The position numbers and the translations under genes are program-made. Source: Deltaproteobacteria bacterium (lineage in GTDB: Bacteria; Desulfobacterota; Binatia; Binatales; Binataceae). Taken from it: 64,000 nt of DNA. The DNA lies in the NCBI GenBank assembly GCA_021799495.1, contig JAJZAI010000004.1, positions 1 to 64,000 on the forward strand, in the 5' to 3' direction. Below are positions 7,043-16,511 of this stretch, one piece after another. Positions within the stretch are counted from its first letter, which is position 1. Every line of letters starts with the position of its first letter. The notes beneath the pieces were generated by a model. The model saw nothing but the letters and a program-made list of their open reading frames with translations. It was not told the origin of the DNA and did not search any database.

Positions 7043-8578
7043 TCAGTCGGATTCGGCGGATGCGATAGCCGACAGAGCAAGTTTATCGATCGCGACCGGC
7101 GGTACGATATAAGCTTCTGGCGATCCCCAAACCATCGCGGGCCGAGGGCGGCGCGCGATACCAATTGGGTTTGAAAATATCTCCGATATATTCGCGTTGA
7201 TGCGAAAATGATTGGGCGCGAGCGGCGCGGCCAGCCGTCCGCCGCGAATAACATATGAATCGCCGCTGATCGTGCAGGTAAAATCGCCCGCGCGCTGCCC
7301 GTTGATGGGATACGTGTACCAGACGCGGCCGACGTAGATTCCATCGCCAACGGCGCGTATGAGTTCCGCGTCGCTCACGCCGGCGCCGGCGGTCATCAAC
7401 AGATTGGTCGCGGCGGCTCCGGGATGGCCGTCGAAGCGGCGCGCCGAGCTTTCTCCCATCCGGTATGCGCTGTGCGGCGGAAACGCCGGTTCCGCGGGCG
7501 CGCCCGCGCCGAGTTTCTCCGCGCGGCGCTCGTCGGCGAGCAAACGATGCGCGTCGTAGGTATTCGCGAGCAAACCGCACAACCTGCCATGGCGGACCAG
7601 TTCCGTCCGTTCCGCAGGCAGCCCTTCGCAGGTGATTGTGCGGTGGATTGAGCCGGCGGGCGCGCCGGGATCGTCGGCGAGGCTGATGCGCTCGTCCATC
7701 ACGAGTTCCCCGAAACGGCCCTGATAAGCCGAGTTGGCCGCCTGGAAAGCGCTCGCGGTGAGCGACGGCACGACCATGTAATTGAGAATTTCGGCGATTG
7801 GCTGCGGTCCCATCACGACCCGGAAGGTTCCGTGACGGGGACGTTCTCCGTGGCGCAGCGCAAGCGCGCGAATCAGCGCTTCGCGTCCGAGGCGCGCGCC
7901 GGCGCGATTCAATTCTTCGAGCGTCACGCCCATCGCGGTCGCGGAGCCTTTGGCGTTGAGCGCTTCAACCAGCGCCGTGACCGACGAGGCGAATCGCGCG
8001 CTCTCGTCATTGCGGACATCGTCGAAATTTGAACCGCCGATCGCGATTCGATCGCGAATCAGGGAGAGGTCGCCGCCGATCACCAGTCCCGGCCGCGGCA
8101 TCGCGAGTTTCATCCGGGCGCGGAACGCGGCGAGCGCGCCGCCAACGATCCGCCATGCGGCCGCAGCCAGAATTTCGTCTTTTGCGCCCATCAAGCGCGA
8201 TTTTTCGGCGCTCGCCGGAATTGTCCGCAGCCGTTTTGGACCCCGCGGCAATCCCGGAAAATGCGGATCGACGATTACGGCGCGGCGCGCGCGTTCGAGC
8301 GCTTCCCGAACCGCGCCGATGGTCATATCGCCGGCGATGGCGGCGTTGCCCGTCGCATGGGGGTCGTGCGCCATCGCGATGCGGATCGCGAAGCCGTCGG
8401 CGTCGAGCGATTTGAACTCCTCGACGCCGCGCGCTGGAATATCCGAAGTATAATTTATGCGGGCGACGCGATGCTCGCTCGACGAAGCGTAAACATCGAA
8501 GCCGGCGAGGTCGCGCTGGCGCGCGAGCATCGCGCACGCTTCACGAACAAAGCCGCGCATATCGGCGGTCGTGCGCAT
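7043..8578 (-). CDS. tldE: TldE/PmbA-like metalloprotease partner subunit
   Basis: A 511-residue protein of the TldD/PmbA (peptidase U62) family. In the known TldD-TldE complex only TldD carries the zinc site and TldE is the inactive partner. This protein fits TldE: it has the family's C-terminal SIHRTITCEGLPAERTELVRHGRL and NLLMTAGAGVSDAEL segments but no HExxxH. It starts 7 bases after the tldD stop, so the two are translated together. The complex cleaves unfolded or modified peptides, including RiPP precursors, and in Escherichia coli is needed for CcdA degradation and microcin B17 maturation. Here it closes a TonB uptake operon. Confidence 0.85.
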   Translation of the reverse strand: MRTTADMRGFVREACAMLARQRDLAGFDVYASSSEHRVARINYTSDIPARGVEEFKSLDADGFAIRIAMAHDPHATGNAAIAGDMTIGAVREALERARRAVIVDPHFPGLPRGPKRLRTIPASAEKSRLMGAKDEILAAAAWRIVGGALAAFRARMKLAMPRPGLVIGGDLSLIRDRIAIGGSNFDDVRNDESARFASSVTALVEALNAKGSATAMGVTLEELNRAGARLGREALIRALALRHGERPRHGTFRVVMGPQPIAEILNYMVVPSLTASAFQAANSAYQGRFGELVMDERISLADDPGAPAGSIHRTITCEGLPAERTELVRHGRLCGLLANTYDAHRLLADERRAEKLGAGAPAEPAFPPHSAYRMGESSARRFDGHPGAAATNLLMTAGAGVSDAELIRAVGDGIYVGRVWYTYPINGQRAGDFTCTISGDSYVIRGGRLAAPLAPNHFRINANISEIFSNPIGIARRPRPAMVWGSPEAYIVPPVAIDKLALSAIASAESD

Positions 8579-8585
8579 CGTTCGA

Positions 8586-10193
8586 TCATCCGCCTCCGAG
8601 CCGTGCGCGCGAGCGCAGCGTCGGACCGCCGTTGGACATCCGCTTGACCTGCATCGGCTGGCCCTTGCCGCAGTTGGGTATCGCGACGAGGCGCAAATCG
8701 TTTCCGACCGCGTCGATCGCGCTGAAAAAGCGCTTCGAATCCGCGATCACCGAGCCAGAGCGGAAGAGCCTGCCGATCCGGCCGTGCTCGATTTCATAAA
8801 CGCGGCGCGCCGAGATGCGGAAATTTTCGCGCGACTCCGCGATCGATGGAACCAGATGGCCGCAGACGTAGTAGCCGCGATCGACTTCCGCGATGATTTT
8901 TTGCGGGTCGTTCTCCCCCGGCAGAAAGAAAGTGTTGGACATCCGGATCAGCGGCGCGTGCCAGGCTTCGCTCGCGCGCGCGGAGCCGTTCGGCTCGGCG
9001 CCGAGGATCGCGGCGGTGGCGCGCGAATTGAGAAATCCGCGAAATACCCCTCCTTCGATATGCGTCACCCGGCGGCCGGGCGTGCCTTCGTGGTCGTAAA
9101 GATAGTGTCCGTAGCCGTTGAGCGTAGGGTCGGAGCAGGCCCAGAGGAGGGGAGAACCGACCGGCCGGCCGATTTCATTTCGCTCCAGCGAGCCCAGGAA
9201 CCAGCTCCGGCCCGCATAGGCCGCCTCCATCTTCAGCGCACGGTCGGCTTCGCACGGATGGCCGATAATTTCGTGGGCGATCAGCGCGTTGAAGTGCGGA
9301 TCGGTGACGACCACGACTTCGCCGTCAGGCGGTTTCAGGGCCGGCGCCGCGGCGACCTCGCGCGTTTCGCGGCCGAGTTCCACGGCGAAGCGATGGAGGC
9401 CGGGATTGGGCGCCAGTTCGTCGCGCCAATCGTTGGCGAGACATTCGAAGCCGCGTTGCTGGCCAATCGTGTCGTAGCTTTCCTGATAGCCGCCGTCGGC
9501 CGCGGCCACGACGTAACAATCGCCCTGCGAGAACGCGAACGCCTGCGAAATATTCGCGCCGGCCGTGTTGAGAAAAACCTCATGGCGCAATTCGCTGAGC
9601 GCGGCGACCGCGTTGTAGGCGATTTCGCGGCCGAGCGCGGCAATTTCCGCCGACGCCTCCCGGCAGGCGCGGCCGAGTTCCGACGGATTGAGTGTGCGCG
9701 GATCGCGCCGGTGGATCGCCGGAATCTCGGCGCGTTCGCATGAGGGCGCGACTTCTCCGAACAGCGCGATCGATTTCATCGCCGCCGCCGGGACGGATCG
9801 CGCGAGCGCCGCCATTTCGCGCGCATTGCATCGCGCGCGCTCGAAAGCTCCGGCGAGCGCCGCATCGATCGACGCGGCAAGCTTCGTGCGGCTGAGCGCG
9901 ATCCTGCCGACCTCCACGCCCGTGAAGCCTTCGCCGACGGCGCCGCCGCCCGCGGCGCATCGCACGCGCACGCCCAACGCCGCGTTGCCGCTCTCGAACG
10001 CATCGCGCGCCTCGCCGTCAACCGCGGACGCGGTTCGGGTAAACGAAGCTTCGAACCGAAGCTCCGCATAGGCGGCGCCGCGATGCGTCCGGACGAAGCG
10101 GCGGAGCATCGGTTCGCCCGCCGCGCGCAGAAATTCGACCGCGCCAAAAACGCCATCGGAACCCCGGCTTCTTCGAGAGTTCGTCATGCTCAT
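8586..10193 (-). CDS. tldD: TldD metalloprotease
   Basis: A 535-residue zinc metalloprotease, catalytic half of the TldD-TldE complex. HEIIGH at residues 307-312 is the HExxxH zinc motif in the usual TldD position, followed by the family region GHYLYDHEGTPGRRVTHIEGG. The start ATG at 10193 overlaps the tonB stop by 4 bases (ATGA); a second ATG is at 10187. This coupling to tonB is unusual, since tldD normally sits apart from transport genes. N-terminal residues 1-30 are Ser/Arg rich. See the finding on the combined TonB and TldDE operon. Confidence 0.9.
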   Translation of the reverse strand: MSMTNSRRSRGSDGVFGAVEFLRAAGEPMLRRFVRTHRGAAYAELRFEASFTRTASAVDGEARDAFESGNAALGVRVRCAAGGGAVGEGFTGVEVGRIALSRTKLAASIDAALAGAFERARCNAREMAALARSVPAAAMKSIALFGEVAPSCERAEIPAIHRRDPRTLNPSELGRACREASAEIAALGREIAYNAVAALSELRHEVFLNTAGANISQAFAFSQGDCYVVAAADGGYQESYDTIGQQRGFECLANDWRDELAPNPGLHRFAVELGRETREVAAAPALKPPDGEVVVVTDPHFNALIAHEIIGHPCEADRALKMEAAYAGRSWFLGSLERNEIGRPVGSPLLWACSDPTLNGYGHYLYDHEGTPGRRVTHIEGGVFRGFLNSRATAAILGAEPNGSARASEAWHAPLIRMSNTFFLPGENDPQKIIAEVDRGYYVCGHLVPSIAESRENFRISARRVYEIEHGRIGRLFRSGSVIADSKRFFSAIDAVGNDLRLVAIPNCGKGQPMQVKRMSNGGPTLRSRARLGGG

Positions 10194-10912
10194 TGAACGG
10201 TTATAGGAATTCGTACATCAAATTCGGACACGATCGGAACGCCTTTTCTGATGGCGGGGAAAAATCTCCATTGTCTTAGTGTATTGATCAGAATCTGATT
10301 CAATTCCGGATTCATGGTCGGTTGGGACAGCACGACCTCGTCGCTGCCATCGGCCTTGACAATAAAATGAGCGATCGCGACGGTATTGATCTGTTGGTCG
10401 CGCAGATCGTCGGGAATGGTTGGCGTTGGCGCATAGACTGCGCGAGCGCCTGATGCACCGACGCCGAAGTTGAAGCCGCCCCCGGCTGGAGATGCGGGGC
10501 CATACGGCATTGACGCTCCACCGGAGGGCGCCGCACTCGAAGCCGGCGCGGCCTCATGGGGACGCTCGGTCGCTTTGGCCGTCCCGGAGGGCGACGGAGG
10601 ATGAACTATCTCATGATGCCGCGGCATCGGGTGATGACGAACGACGGGCGTTGGCTTCGCTATCGGACGCGGTGGCGCGGCTGCGGCCGGATGAGCTATT
10701 GCGCCGGTCGGGTTTAACTGCGGCGGCAGTTCGACGATTTGCGCCTGCACCGTCGTCGATTCAGGCGGCGGCGGGGCGGATTGTTCCAGCACGCGCGCGA
10801 AGCCTTCAAGGATTGCGAACCAGAGCGCGATCGATAACGGCACAATCCAGAGCAGCCGCCAGCGCTGATCGTCGAGCTCCGGTCCGCTGGAAGTATTGGG
10901 CCAACTCGTCAT
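10190..10912 (-). CDS. tonB: TonB energy-transducing protein
   Basis: A 240-residue inner-membrane protein. A single transmembrane segment lies near residues 19-41, followed by a periplasmic Pro/Ala/His-rich stalk (about 45-145) and a C-terminal TonB domain ending in ALTERNATING strand pattern with LRQWRFFPAIRKGVP, the typical Lxxw+F.PA.+.G signature. It carries proton-motive energy from ExbB-ExbD to the outer-membrane receptor. Start and stop both overlap neighbours by 4 bases (exbD upstream, tldD downstream). The stalk is rich in His-Pro pairs, which may matter if the cargo is a metal chelate, but that is speculation. Confidence 0.88.
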   Translation of the reverse strand: MTSWPNTSSGPELDDQRWRLLWIVPLSIALWFAILEGFARVLEQSAPPPPESTTVQAQIVELPPQLNPTGAIAHPAAAAPPRPIAKPTPVVRHHPMPRHHEIVHPPSPSGTAKATERPHEAAPASSAAPSGGASMPYGPASPAGGGFNFGVGASGARAVYAPTPTIPDDLRDQQINTVAIAHFIVKADGSDEVVLSQPTMNPELNQILINTLRQWRFFPAIRKGVPIVSEFDVRIPITVQ

Positions 10913-11310
10913 TCGCGTCTGACCGCGATGGTGAAGTGATCGACGCCCGCGGCGCGCGCCCGCAGCATCGCGCGCACCACCACTCCCTCCGGCGCGGCGC
11001 CGTCGGCATTGACGACGACGCCGTGGTCGCCCGCGGCGAGCCGCGGTTCGAGGACGGCGGCCAGCGTGTCGAGCGTGACGGGGGTTTTGTCGATCAGGAT
11101 TTCGCCCTCTCGCGTAACCGTGAGCGTTACCGGCTCCTTGTGGCTCATCGGAGCGGCGGCGCCTTCGGGCAGGTTAACTTTGAGCGAATTCAGCGTTTGC
11201 ATCGAGAGCGACGCGAGCATGAAAGTCGCGAGCAGGAAGAACATCACGTCGATCATGGGAATGATTTCGATTCGCCCGCGCCGCGATATGCGCGATCGTT
11301 TGAGCTTCAT
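10909..11310 (-). CDS. exbD: ExbD biopolymer transport protein
   Basis: A 133-residue inner-membrane protein with one N-terminal transmembrane helix at about residues 17-38. The helix contains PMIDVMFFLLATFML, where the aspartate is the conserved proton-path residue of ExbD/TolR/MotB. The rest is a periplasmic ExbD fold (LTVTREGEILIDKTPV, VVVNADGAAPEG). ATGA overlaps join it to exbB upstream and tonB downstream, giving strict co-translation of the motor complex. Confidence 0.92.
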   Translation of the reverse strand: MKLKRSRISRRGRIEIIPMIDVMFFLLATFMLASLSMQTLNSLKVNLPEGAAAPMSHKEPVTLTVTREGEILIDKTPVTLDTLAAVLEPRLAAGDHGVVVNADGAAPEGVVVRAMLRARAAGVDHFTIAVRRE

Positions 11311-11990
11311 CGGGCGGCCTCCCGCGCCCGCGCCAGCGGCGCAGCCGCGTTTTCGGACGCGCCATTTTCCTGATCAAGCCGGATATGATCGATGAGACGC
11401 GAACCCAAACGCTCCATTCGGTCGAGCGCTTGCGCCTGCGTGCGCGAAAAAAAATTGAAGCCGAACAGCGAAAGGATGGCGATAAGCAGGCCGAGAGCCG
11501 TCGCGATGAGCGCCTCGGCGACGCCCGAAGTCACCTGCGTCGGCGCCACGAGCGTGGACGTGCCGATAATTTTGAACGCCTGCATCATGCCGGTGATTGT
11601 GCCGAGCAAGCCGAGCAGCGGGGCGGCGGTGACGACGGTTTCGAGAATCCAGAGGCCGCGATTCAGCGTCTTTTCGATCGCGCCCGCTTCGTCGCCGGCG
11701 CGCGACTCGACCCACCATACGGGCTTGGCGCGATTGTCGGCGATCGTTTTGAAGAAACGCGCATAGGCGTTGTGCGGTCCGAGCGCGGCCAGCCGTTTTT
11801 CCAGCTCCTGCCAGTCAAAACCGTAGGTCTCGGCCAGCGCAAGCAGGTCGCCCGGCAGGCGCAGGCAGCGTCCGTACGCGACGGCGCGGTCGATAATGAT
11901 GGCGAGCGCGATCACGCCGAGCGCGAGCAGCGGATAAACCATCGGCCCGCCGTACGTGATCGCCTCCCATGCGCCTTTCAATTCATTCAT
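11307..11990 (-). CDS. exbB: ExbB/TolQ/MotA-type proton channel protein
   Basis: About 227 residues with three transmembrane helices: near the N terminus (YPLLALGVIALAIIIDRAV) and two in the second half around AAPLLGLLGTITGMMQAF, the family's conserved core, and IATALGLLIAILSLFGFNFF. The ATG at 11990 (MNELKGAWEAITYGG) fits the family; the frame remains open further upstream but that stretch is not membrane-like. The receptor gene stops 55 bases upstream. ExbB forms the pentameric stator that drives TonB. Confidence 0.92.
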   Translation of the reverse strand: MNELKGAWEAITYGGPMVYPLLALGVIALAIIIDRAVAYGRCLRLPGDLLALAETYGFDWQELEKRLAALGPHNAYARFFKTIADNRAKPVWWVESRAGDEAGAIEKTLNRGLWILETVVTAAPLLGLLGTITGMMQAFKIIGTSTLVAPTQVTSGVAEALIATALGLLIAILSLFGFNFFSRTQAQALDRMERLGSRLIDHIRLDQENGASENAAAPLARAREAAR

Positions 11991-12045
11991 TGTATTGAGC
12001 CTCGTGAAGTGAATATCGACAGTCTCATTCCTTGCGGGCGCGGCG

Positions 12046-14433
12046 TCAGAACGCGGGCAGCGGCACGGAGACCGAGCCGTACACCGCGCGGCGGGGCCCG
12101 TATGCGGGAACAAATATTCCGATCCCTGTGCCTTCGCGCAGGATGTTGGTGCGATCAAAGGCGTTGAGCAACGCCACTCGCGTGGTTACTTCGCCAACAT
12201 TGGATACATCGAAGCTGCGCCCGACGCCAAGGTTGATTTGCCAGTTGAATGGCACCTCGGCGGTATTGTCGAATCCCGCTCTCAAACCGCTGCCGTAATT
12301 CCCGCTGGCGCTGAACAACCAGGATTTCCAATTGTACGCAAGCCATCCCGAAGCCGTATAAAATTGCTGATGATCGAGGTATATATAGTGATTATCCGCA
12401 TAGGCGAGGCCCGCCTGCGTGAAATTGAATTGTCCGGTTACCACCTCGGTTCCCTGCGCCACGGAGTATGAAAAATTCGCTCCACACGAGAGCGATTTGC
12501 CGAGCTGATAGCTGGCCGTAGTCTCGACGCCGTAGATGCGTCCATTCATGTAGTTGAATGGCGCGAAGATCGGGACGAAGCCGAACTGGCCGAGATCAAG
12601 CAGATCGTGAGCCAGCTCGAAGTAGGCGTCCTCCCCGAGCGTAAGTCCCGGAATAAGTTTGCTTATCGTTCCGCCAACGTCGAAATACCAGTCGCTTTCG
12701 GGCTTTGGCTCCGAGTTGCCCGGGAGCACGGCCGCGGTGGTGTCTTTGAAAGCGCTGAAACTGCGCGGTGAAATCGTATAGAATGAGGGAGTTTGAAAAT
12801 AGCGCGAGAACCCCGCATGCAGGGTGAGATTCTCCCGTGGAACATAGACCAGATTGGCGCGCGGGCTCAGTTGGTTGGCGGAGCCGGCAAAGCCCGCCAT
12901 CTGATCCCATCTTGCGCCGTAATCGAGGCTGAGTTTTCGGGAAATTCGCCAATGGTCCTGTCCGTACACACCCGCCAGCCACGCGATGCCGTTGGTATTA
13001 TCGATGATATTGACCGGGATGTCGCTGGTTTGCTTTCCGGATGAGTCGGCCGGAAAGGCCGCCGAAGTATCGTCGAGCGTCTCGCCATACTCGCCGGCAT
13101 AGAAGCCTGCGGCGAAAGTATGGGACTTGTTGTAGTGGTAGGTGGCGTCGCCCTGCAGGGTGTTGGCGAATTCGCTGTGAAAGACGTTGGAAGCGACGCC
13201 CTGATATAACAAATCGCCAATCGGGTCTGGCGTGAAAAGTATCGTGTTGTATTTGGCCGTATACGCGATTTGATAGTTGAAACTGGCGCCCTCGGTTCCC
13301 TGTAACGTGAGAATCCCGAAATAGTATCTTTGATCCAGATTTTCGTTGAGATCGGTCGATGGATAAGCGGCCGGATTCACCCCGGCGAGCTTGTAAAGCG
13401 GAATTTGGCCCGGATAGTCGGGAAACTGGTTGTCGGCGACCGATACGCCGGAAGTGAACGAGAGACGTGTGGTGGGATTGAGAAAATATGAAAAATAGCC
13501 GAACCACTGCCCTTGATCGGTTATGTCGTGAATCGGAGTGGGTCCCGGGGTGGCGGAACTAAGGCCGATGTTGTCGTGCAGATAGAAGCCGGTGGTGTAA
13601 AAGCTGAAGTTACCCTTGCAGCCGCCATATTCGAAGCTGGGACGCGCGGTCTCGCGCTGGCCGCCGTAAAGCTGAAAGCGCCCTCCCGGATCTGTGCACC
13701 CGTCCTTGGTCTGGATATCCAGAATTCCCGCGTCGCGATAACCGTATTGCGCCGGCAGCGCGCCGTCCACCAGGCTGATGCTGCGGATCGAGTAGGAGGA
13801 AAGCACTTGGCCGAATCCACTGAAGCTGTCGAGCGGCAGCATGATTCCGTTGATTCGCCATTGCAGGTCCGCGTGGGCGCCGCGTATATGAACCTGGCCA
13901 TTTTCGTCCTGCGCGACTCCCGGCATCTGCAAAAGCACCTGGCTCACCGAGGTGTTGTTGCCGGCCGGGAGTTCCGAAATGCTTTTTTCGGTTATCGTAT
14001 AGGCGCTGTTGCCGGAAGCTGAAAGTTGATTTGGCGCCCGGTTGAGCCGTTGCGCCGAGACCGCGACGGTAAGCGGCCCGAGCGAGTTCATTGTCAGCGC
14101 GATCGGAGCGGCGGTCGCGCCGGGCGCGACCGAGACGACTTTGCTGGCGACCGCAAATCGCCGTTTTTTGGCGATAATCAGGAAAAGCCCAGCCGGCGCG
14201 GCGGACAACTCAAAATATCCTTTGGAATCCGTAAGCGCCTGGCCGACGACGCGTCCGTTTTGATCCTCCAGCAATAATTGAACGCCGGCCAAAGGTCGGT
14301 TAAGCGCATCCTTGACCGTGCCGCGCAGCGCCTGTTTGTTGGCAGGCGCCTGTGGGCTTGCGGCAATCGTGATTCCAGGCGTCATCACCGCTGCAAGTAC
14401 GACTAACAATGCCGCAGCCGCTAGATTCCGCAT
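12046..14433 (-). CDS. TonB-dependent outer-membrane receptor with carboxypeptidase-regulatory-like domain
   Basis: About 795 residues from the ATG at 14433, which gives a clear signal peptide (AALLVVLAAVMTPGITIAAS). Residues about 35-115 form a CarboxypepD_reg-like Ig fold (LRGTVKDALNRPLAGVQLLLEDQ), as in SusC/CirA-like receptors. The plug domain follows (NTSVSQVLLQMPGVAQDENGQVHIRG), then a 22-strand-type barrel ending in YGSVSVPLPAF with the terminal phenylalanine. An alternative start is 14463. The ligand cannot be read from sequence. The neighbours are a dedicated ExbB-ExbD-TonB set and TldDE, so the cargo may be a peptide or peptide chelate. Confidence 0.88.
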   Translation of the reverse strand: MRNLAAAALLVVLAAVMTPGITIAASPQAPANKQALRGTVKDALNRPLAGVQLLLEDQNGRVVGQALTDSKGYFELSAAPAGLFLIIAKKRRFAVASKVVSVAPGATAAPIALTMNSLGPLTVAVSAQRLNRAPNQLSASGNSAYTITEKSISELPAGNNTSVSQVLLQMPGVAQDENGQVHIRGAHADLQWRINGIMLPLDSFSGFGQVLSSYSIRSISLVDGALPAQYGYRDAGILDIQTKDGCTDPGGRFQLYGGQRETARPSFEYGGCKGNFSFYTTGFYLHDNIGLSSATPGPTPIHDITDQGQWFGYFSYFLNPTTRLSFTSGVSVADNQFPDYPGQIPLYKLAGVNPAAYPSTDLNENLDQRYYFGILTLQGTEGASFNYQIAYTAKYNTILFTPDPIGDLLYQGVASNVFHSEFANTLQGDATYHYNKSHTFAAGFYAGEYGETLDDTSAAFPADSSGKQTSDIPVNIIDNTNGIAWLAGVYGQDHWRISRKLSLDYGARWDQMAGFAGSANQLSPRANLVYVPRENLTLHAGFSRYFQTPSFYTISPRSFSAFKDTTAAVLPGNSEPKPESDWYFDVGGTISKLIPGLTLGEDAYFELAHDLLDLGQFGFVPIFAPFNYMNGRIYGVETTASYQLGKSLSCGANFSYSVAQGTEVVTGQFNFTQAGLAYADNHYIYLDHQQFYTASGWLAYNWKSWLFSASGNYGSGLRAGFDNTAEVPFNWQINLGVGRSFDVSNVGEVTTRVALLNAFDRTNILREGTGIGIFVPAYGPRRAVYGSVSVPLPAF

Positions 14434-14634
14434 TGCCAACCCTCGCGGCGTTTCACGGTGCATGACATGCGCAGGAGCCTTATCCGCGCGCGTTCGCCTG
14501 GGAGCGTCTGACGGCGCAAGTTCCAGAGCGGGAATCGCGGCGATTCCCACCTCAGATCGTGATGGCCGACCCATGATAAACCGGTCCTCTTTGACGTCCC
14601 GCGCTCGTCGGCGTTTGGACGACGGTCTTTGTCC

Positions 14635-14660
14635 CTACGCTCGGCGGGAGCCATGCGTAG
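14635..14660. promoter_or_regulatory. Small inverted repeat CTACGC...GCGTAG upstream of receptor gene
   Basis: A 6-bp inverted repeat with a 14-base loop in the 262-base gap between the CPLC-motif gene and the receptor. It could be an operator or a leader hairpin of the receptor. The rest of this gap shows no riboswitch core that I recognise. Confidence 0.25.
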
Positions 14661-14694
14661 CTGTGGAGCCGAACAAAATGTCAGTGAAAGACGA

Positions 14695-15039
14695 CTAGAG
14701 CGCGTAGGCGGGAGGGGCGCGCGTACGCCATGCCGAAAACGGCGCGCCGAATACGCGCCGAATGCCGGTGACCGGCGTCAGCCGGTTCGTCAGGACGGGA
14801 CGATCTATCGTCGGCGCGACGGCCGGTTTAACCGGCGCATGGCACGCAAATGCGCATAACGGACATGCCGCGGAGTCCAAAGCGATTTGCGCTGGAGAAA
14901 TGACGCGCCTGGTCGAATCGACGCGATGAAAATGCCCCGCCGCGACCATCTGCGCGAACGCCAGCACGAGCGCCATCAGCAGCACGGCCGCCCTGCGGCG
15001 CCGATTCCCGCTGCCTGTGGATGGTCTGGCGGTTGTCAC
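14695..15039 (-). CDS. Small membrane-anchored protein with CPLC motif (DUF2946-like)
   Basis: A 114-residue protein starting at a GTG. It has an arginine-rich n-region, one hydrophobic segment (AAVLLMALVLAFAQMVAAG) that could be a signal anchor, a GHFH sequence right after it, and then ACPLCAFACHAP. DUF2946-type proteins have this size and layout with a CPxC motif and are often found beside TonB-dependent receptors and metal-handling genes. The Cys and His residues could bind a metal ion in the periplasm. It lies directly upstream of the receptor on the same strand, so it may be the first gene of the operon. The family assignment is tentative. Confidence 0.55.
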   Translation of the reverse strand: MTTARPSTGSGNRRRRAAVLLMALVLAFAQMVAAGHFHRVDSTRRVISPAQIALDSAACPLCAFACHAPVKPAVAPTIDRPVLTNRLTPVTGIRRVFGAPFSAWRTRAPPAYAL

Positions 15040-15094
15040 CGGTTTTGCGAACAGCGCCGTCCGAACGTTTTACGCCGGACGGCCCCAATTCGCC

Positions 15095-16294
15095 TTACAG
15101 GATACCCTCCTCCTTGAGTGACGCCAAGTCGGCCGCCGAATAACCAAGGAGTTCGCCATATACCTCATTATTATGCTGGCCGAGCAGTGGCGCCGCCTTG
15201 ACCTCGACGGGCGAATCCTCCAGCCGCACGGGACATCCCGGCATCGTGAATTCGCCCCGCGCCGGATGGTCCACCGTCACCACCATCCCGCGCTCGCGCA
15301 TATGCGGATCGTTGAGCAATTCGACGCTGTCGAGCACCGCGCCGCACGGCACGCCCGCCTCGCCCATCAGCCGCATCACTTCGCGCTTGGGACGCCGCGA
15401 CGTCCAGTCTTCGATTATGCGCGACAGCTCTTCGATATATTTCACCCGTTCGCGTCGATCGCGGAAGCGCGGATCTTCGAACACTTCCGGACGGCCGATC
15501 GTCCTGCACATCGCCTCGAACATCTCGGGCGTCGTGCAGAGCATGTAAACGTAGTCGTTTGGCCCGCCGGGCGCGCATTTGTAGATGTCCCCGATCGCGC
15601 CCGAGGCGAGGCGATTGCCGGCGCGCGGCGTCGGCTCGTTCGTGATATACGTGCCCATCATCGGCACGCGCACGAAATTGAAAACCGCCTCCTGCATCGC
15701 GACTTCGACCTTCTGTCCCTTGCCGGTGCGCTCGCGCTGGATATAAGCCGCCAGCACTCCGCAGGCCGCGTGGATTCCGGTGCCGGTGTCGCCGATCGTC
15801 GGCCCCGGCTTGAGCGGCGGCGAGCCCGGAAATCCGGTCAGCGACATCGCGCCGCCGGTGGCCTGCGCGATCATGTCGAAGCTTTTGTATTTGCTGTACG
15901 GGCCGTGTGTGCCAAAGCCCTTGATCGTCAGGTAAATCAGCCGCGGATTTATCTCGCGCAGGCTCTCGTAGCCAAGTCCGAGGTTTTCAAGCACGCCGAG
16001 CGAGTAATTTTCCGCAAGGATATCGACCTTCTTCGCCAGCTCGCGGAAAATTTCCTTGCCGCGTTCCGATTTGAGATTGAGCGTCACGCTGCGCTTGTTC
16101 GCGTTTAGCAGCATGAAGTAGTGGGAATCGACGCCGGGCTTTTCGGTCAGCAGCCAGCGTCCCTGCTCGCCCATCTTCGGCGGCTCGACCTTGATTACGT
16201 TCGCTCCGAGCCACGCCAGCATCTCGGTGCATGACGTTCCGGCCTCGAACTGCGTCAGATCCAGCACCTTCACTCCGGCCAAAGCCTTTTCCAT
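15095..16294 (-). CDS. CaiB/BaiF (family III) CoA transferase
   Basis: A 399-residue enzyme that moves CoA between carboxylic acids; the family forms interlocked homodimers. The N terminus (GVKVLDLTQFEAGTSCTEMLAWLGANVIKVEPP) and the FDMIAQATGGAMSLTG and GDTGTGIHAACGVLAA regions are diagnostic; the last two surround the active-site aspartate. I chose the ATG at 16294 because GGAG lies 7 bases upstream; a TTG six bases earlier is weaker. The substrate is unknown. A TPP enzyme related to oxalyl-CoA decarboxylase is in the window but 9 kb away with unrelated genes between. Confidence 0.88.
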   Translation of the reverse strand: MEKALAGVKVLDLTQFEAGTSCTEMLAWLGANVIKVEPPKMGEQGRWLLTEKPGVDSHYFMLLNANKRSVTLNLKSERGKEIFRELAKKVDILAENYSLGVLENLGLGYESLREINPRLIYLTIKGFGTHGPYSKYKSFDMIAQATGGAMSLTGFPGSPPLKPGPTIGDTGTGIHAACGVLAAYIQRERTGKGQKVEVAMQEAVFNFVRVPMMGTYITNEPTPRAGNRLASGAIGDIYKCAPGGPNDYVYMLCTTPEMFEAMCRTIGRPEVFEDPRFRDRRERVKYIEELSRIIEDWTSRRPKREVMRLMGEAGVPCGAVLDSVELLNDPHMRERGMVVTVDHPARGEFTMPGCPVRLEDSPVEVKAAPLLGQHNNEVYGELLGYSAADLASLKEEGIL

Positions 16295-16511
16295 CGGCAA
16301 TCTCCAGACACGAGCGGCGCCCGGGCGCGTTCGTGCGGTGATGCGCCCGCCGGGGGCGGCGCGCGAATTTATATGGCGCTACTTGACAATCTTACTAGCG
16401 CCGAAGGCGCGATCCGGCAAGGCCGCGGCGCGCACGCCGGCGGCGGCTTACGCGGATCGGCGCGGTTTGATAAGTTTTCCGCGGACTCATCGCCGCGATG
16501 GAATCAAATTG

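Follow-up and report, generated by a model that had tools for sequence, protein, structure and literature searches.

The window analyzed here, a stretch of 64,000 nucleotides that is part of contig C12 in the 3.4 Mb genome of a soil bacterium (Binatota), carries on its minus strand, in this order, a coenzyme A (CoA)-transferase, a 114-residue open reading frame (ORF), a TonB-dependent receptor, ExbB, ExbD, a TonB-like protein, TldD2 and TldE2. Judged from sequence and genome comparison, this block is probably a metal-uptake operon, with zinc the most likely metal, which lies under a CruR-like leader and ends in a divergent TldDE pair. An earlier note on this DNA had instead proposed the import of a modified peptide followed by its digestion in the cytoplasm. 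The gene order it described, the 4-base overlaps (exbB/exbD, exbD/tonB and tonB/tldD) and the 7-base spacer between tldD and tldE were all confirmed on the minus strand, as was a receptor with a carboxypeptidase-regulatory domain before exbB (Pfam CarboxypepD_reg, 1.5e-10). What it overlooked is the start of the operon, where the 114-residue ORF and the CoA-transferase precede the receptor on the same strand, and the fact that these protease genes are not the ordinary TldDE of the cell. The zinc assignment rests on the occurrence of the same kind of leader with Znu operons, on the presence of ZnuABC at the same site beside tldD2 in relatives, and on a ZnuABC-linked Fur regulator adjoining such leaders in some relatives.

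A CruR-like leader heads the operon

The 114-residue ORF (14695..15039, minus strand, GTG start; identified by motif scan and alignment) includes an HxH that follows a hydrophobic N-terminal stretch, and a CxxC motif (CPLC) followed by 44 residues, RAPP, 4 residues and the stop. In CruR, a DUF2946 protein, the CXXC senses copper and ribosome stalling at RAPP leaves the operon switched on, both motifs being needed and their spacing of 45 being kept within 1–2 residues; CutF is a related copper-responsive leader (PMC9426467, PMC9973294). Among the leaders collected here, the spacing was exactly 44 in 22 of 23 copies in the first motif scan and in 50 of 57 over all scans (43–45 in the remainder), with R[A/S/G]PP close to the stop throughout and CxxC in every leader except the CSC-type variants of family f2. 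Other positions are weakly conserved (22–61% identity to the window copy in the alignment). Three CSC variants ending in R[AG]PP (L271, L272 and L273, from G413, G418 and G421) lie 5' of porin genes, and ZnuA and ZnuB genes also follow at the G418 and G421 loci.

The window leader had no match to the Pfam DUF2946 (PF11162) model and the leader of G002 reached 16.2 bits (cut-off 23.7), while 10 of 18 leader members matched with E values of up to 1, the best being 4.4e-4. As the window copy falls below this model, we describe it as resembling CruR-type arrest-peptide leaders on the evidence of its motifs, without counting it among the family members. Because receptor paralogs are too numerous, the leader rather than the receptor was used as the operon marker. 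A leader profile search found matches in 33 of 35 family genomes, almost always as a single copy, which in nearly all readable cases adjoined receptor, ExbB or Znu genes (exception G017). Both kinds of module, receptor-ExbB-ExbD-TonB and porin-ZnuABC, are headed by it, and where the receptor and the ExbBD-TonB genes stand at separate places (G008), each has a leader of its own.

Between leader and receptor lies a long intergenic region (14434..14694), which measures 261 bases with a receptor start at 14433 and 120 with one at 14574. By base count, the leader end is C-rich and G-poor (C/G 1.67 at 14736-14659), a composition that would fit a Rho site, and the intergenic region showed no unusual RNA fold or hairpin, folding no better than shuffles (z -0.39). 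A separate inverted repeat, CCGTCCG...CGGACGG (15045-15085), which could form a hairpin, lies between the CoA-transferase and the leader.

TonB and Znu modules share one slot beside tldD2

The interval between the CoA-transferase and tldD2, hereafter the slot, holds the full receptor-ExbB-ExbD-TonB module in ten genomes, as far as contigs reach (G000, G001, G003, G005, G006, G011, G012, G014, G015 and G027), and a receptor alone in G016. Behind the leader in the slots of G002, G004 and G018 stand genes for a porin-like protein, ZnuA, ZnuC and ZnuB. In G360 (L277:1-2202), the leader is followed by pieces of porin and ZnuC joined together, by ZnuB and then by TldD2-TldE2, with ZnuA missing, and a different contig holds a complete TonB module; this could be a decayed Znu operon or an assembly fault. 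Altogether, 15 genomes from 7 genera have an uptake module in the slot; in the others, the module stands at other places and without TldDE. Conversely, TldD2/TldE2 occur without a module in 16 of 31 genomes, the CoA-transferase then usually lying directly 5' of tldD2 with a gap of often ~15–125 bases.

Slot occupancy requires at least 7 changes on the TldD2 tree, strong branches making at least 4 of them unavoidable for the label "none", and the sites of the standalone modules differ from genus to genus. Only the genus of the window (G000, G001, G003 and G006) has the 4-base tonB/tldD overlap, the gap being ~18–130 bases in the other genomes. The adjacency of tonB and tldD, whose recurrence the earlier note had proposed as a check, was found in 10 genomes of 5 genera with tonB directly before this tldD; it is recurrent and not obligatory. 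An apparent ZnuB-TldD2 fusion in G018 (a single 810-residue open frame) was rejected, as its upstream part is out of the znuB frame and tldD2 starts just past the znuB stop.

Zinc as the probable cargo

Across other families of the class, leaders head porin-ZnuA-ZnuC-ZnuB operons (G036, G042, G054, G047, G363, G376, G361, G379, G349, G355, G348, G046, G354 and more), and most of those in the window's family stand before receptor-ExbB-ExbD-TonB. ZnuA was found in only three of the first 35 family genomes (G002, G004 and G018), all with the Znu module in the slot, and G002 and G004 are without any such TonB receptor. A later, wider genome draw added a standalone leader-Znu operon in the window's family (G356). 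In two genera of another family, both without ZnuA (G045 and G051), the leader heads a TonB receptor.

A regulator gene seen in some relatives points the same way. The leader of G014 has next to it a divergent gene for a Fur-family protein, whose identity is 38–49% to Fur proteins linked with ZnuABC and no more than 30% to other Fur paralogs; these ZnuABC-linked relatives come from four other genomes that all carry ZnuB and ZnuC as well. A Fur of this type also lies between two leaders in G391 (L274:3314-4561) and G045 (L275:4062-5309), both leaders of each pair being CxxC-44-RxPP, one divergent from the Fur gene and one downstream. At the G045 locus, a TonB receptor follows the downstream leader. 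No regulator of this type adjoins the window operon, and none was apparent among the four Fur matches of its genome.

Several observations weigh against zinc or against a CruR-type switch on its uptake. Copper is the signal for the two leaders of this kind that have been studied, with CruR heading a TonB receptor operon (PMC9426467, PMC9973294), the leaders collected here mostly score under the DUF2946 cut-off, and close to the standalone module of G013 is a heavy-metal P-type ATPase whose GMHCASC motif is copper-like (L147:3651-6461). A ZnuA-like protein has Asp at the position usually held by the first His ligand. No Zur box was seen by eye, and with no formal motif search, in the G014 intergenic region or 5' of the ZnuABC-linked Fur genes. 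Finally, the window's genome is without a ZnuA-type inner-membrane zinc ATP-binding cassette (ABC) transporter, so that entry into the cytoplasm would need another route, e.g., a ZIP protein on contig C1.

The same operon serving copper, with a CruR-type leader switching a receptor for copper or a copper chelate, is the reading to which the known leaders and the G013 ATPase would lend themselves, but we consider it unlikely. ZnuABC stands repeatedly behind the leader, a ZnuABC-linked type of Fur adjoins it, and no copper gene was recognized behind the leaders in the loci read, among the selected ORFs scanned. The ZnuA/TroA family is known to handle Zn, Mn and Fe and is not known for copper, which we also counted against copper. 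The exchange with ZnuABC, the distribution of ZnuA and the ZnuABC-linked Fur therefore favor zinc, and make manganese or copper less likely.

Receptor and TonB-ExbB-ExbD motor

The receptor gene (12046..14574, minus strand) matched Pfam TonB_dep_Rec (2.1e-17) and Plug in addition to its N-terminal carboxypeptidase-regulatory domain. Its true start is likely 14433 (MRNLAAAALL, signal-like), relatives starting at the corresponding M. The window receptor shares 74% identity with its counterpart in a standalone module from a different genus (G022; window vs. L044 and L143) and only 49% with the receptor that fills this slot in G001, a member of its own genus. The slot receptors do not form one clade, which indicates that receptors have been exchanged. 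Against solved structures, only weak matches to the colicin I receptor were obtained. Conserved His and Asp residues of the receptor were considered as a metal signature and discarded, as they are conserved in leaderless receptors too.

Following the receptor, ExbB (11307..11990; MotA_ExbB 1.7e-26, 92.9 bits) and ExbD (10909..11310; ExbD 5e-24, 85.2 bits) both score above cut-off. For the TonB-like protein (10190..10912), both TonB profiles fall below cut-off (TonB_C 20.2 bits vs. 24.6; TIGR01352 23.7 vs. 27.1), and gene position and layout fit TonB. In genus g17, standalone modules contain an additional gene of ~405 residues between receptor and ExbB (L152:2328-3542 in G034; L153:5659-6879 in G025).

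A second, divergent TldDE pair

TldD2 (8586..10193, minus strand; PmbA_TldD_3rd 2.5e-38, PDB 5nj5 7.9e-27) and its partner subunit TldE2 (7043..8578, minus strand; PmbA_TldD_3rd 5.5e-31, PDB 1vpb 4.7e-9), which is without HExxxH, both carry the C-terminal PmbA_TldD domain (PF19289; 131.9 and 107.9 bits, respectively, cut-off 22). The N-terminal domain (PF01523) was detected in neither, and only in the pair on contig C49 of the same genome, which is the canonical TldDE pair and makes TldD2/TldE2 the second one. TldD2 scored 97.4 bits against the TldD equivalog NF008006, far under the 513 cut-off. The TldD metal-ligand motif (HExxxH with a distal Cys; PMC5810440) is retained, HEIIGH (H307, E308, H312) and C508 being invariant in 8 TldD2 sequences, outgroup included.

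TldD2 occurs in 31 of 35 family genomes. Within a phylum sample of 297 genomes, it was found outside the family in G090 only, where TldE2 follows too, and the distribution of TldE2 is the same wherever examined. The usual upstream neighbor of tldD2 in the family is the gene seen in the window, a family III (CaiB/BaiF) CoA-transferase (15095..16300, minus strand; Pfam CoA_transf_3 1.1e-118). The link of TldD2/TldE2 to zinc would be regulatory and given by position, and their substrate is probably not the imported cargo.

Proposed mechanism and known relatives

By analogy with CruR, we propose that, when zinc is scarce, the ribosome would stall at the leader RAPP and keep Rho off the message, so that receptor, motor and TldD2/TldE2 get made. 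Zinc binding to the CxxC of the nascent leader (with the nearby His) would relieve stalling, and transcription would then stop within the long intergenic region between leader and receptor. The receptor, powered by TonB-ExbBD, would move zinc or a zinc chelate through the outer membrane, and TldD2/TldE2, translated from the same message, may act as a zinc- or iron-dependent peptidase.

The closest described arrangement is the CruR-bfrG operon of Bordetella pertussis (PMC9426467), where a short leader bearing CxxC and, at its end, RAPP (spacing 45 vs. 44 in the window) is likewise followed by a long intergenic region and a TonB receptor. That system, however, senses copper and has a PepSY_TM gene at the operon end, whereas in the window ExbB-ExbD-TonB and TldDE follow, related leaders head ZnuABC, and the leader scores under the DUF2946 cut-off. 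A TonB receptor is also tied to zinc-uptake genes in Caulobacter (ZnuK/ZnuL/ZnuM), but these genes are Zur-repressed with no such leader reported, and the Caulobacter DUF2946 genes belong to the other side of the regulon, the one that is downregulated and concerned with efflux (PMC4176598). The porin-ZnuABC operons of relatives share slot and kind of leader with the window, which differs in carrying the TonB version; no ZnuA occurs anywhere in its genome. Like Escherichia coli TldD/TldE (PMC5810440; PDB 5nj5), TldD2/TldE2 (~535 and 511 residues) have the C-terminal domain, with HExxxH and the distal Cys in TldD and neither in TldE; unlike them, they are a second pair, far below the equivalog cut-offs, with an N-terminal domain not recognized by Pfam. 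In the literature searched, we found no paper whose topic connects TldD with zinc uptake, or leaders of the DUF2946 type with operons for ZnuABC, and zinc uptake under a CruR-like switch appears not to have been described so far.

Peptide import or passenger genes

Uptake of a peptide or peptide metallophore, with TldDE digesting the imported peptide, would fit the recurrence of the TonB-TldD adjacency over 5 genera, the cleavage of modified peptides by TldDE (PMC5810440) and the import of chelates by TonB receptors. We nevertheless regard it as improbable, more so than copper: the complete module stands without TldDE in many relatives and the two are separate in about half of the genomes, the same slot is taken by ZnuABC, a free-metal carrier, in three relatives plus a remnant, the leader is of a metal-sensing type, and the usual neighbor of TldD2/TldE2 is a CoA-transferase. 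Nor was any peptide permease, gene for ribosomally synthesized and post-translationally modified peptides, or pyrroloquinoline quinone gene recognized among the neighboring genes scanned, and a part for TldD in the maturation of such peptides or of pyrroloquinoline quinone was set aside for that reason. Of the earlier interpretation, the recurrence of the gene pair stands and the imported peptide finds no support, a metal, probably zinc, being the better cargo and a peptide metallophore a less likely one.

Whether TldD2/TldE2 are a mere passenger, with no role in metal homeostasis and with the module placed between CoA-transferase and tldDE2 by history, is to us an even call, and either answer is compatible with zinc uptake. 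Their presence with or without the module, the differing sites of standalone modules per genus and the repeated changes in slot occupancy speak for a passenger. Against this, two distinct zinc-type modules use the slot in 7 genera, close to tldD2; the slot is the sole site widely common to genera; and coupling is tight in places, with the 4-base overlap in the window's genus and the tldD2 ATG right behind the znuB stop in G018.

Implications

Returning to a zinc-uptake operon under a CruR-like leader, it is tempting to speculate that a zinc-sensing leader of this type governs zinc uptake class-wide, with ABC and TonB machines swapped behind it and TldD2/TldE2 a working member of the zinc-starvation response (e.g., in turnover of the arrested leader or of zinc-free proteins), but as a whole we judge this extension to be less likely than not. 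Arrest-peptide leaders have so far been shown to sense copper, and the same signature here stands before zinc-type operons in some ten families of a single class, so that a zinc-sensing version can be tested directly. The comparison also shows unrelated ABC and TonB uptake machines exchanged under one leader; a protease pair would come under that control by position, and the locus would be recast as one of metal supply in place of peptide feeding.

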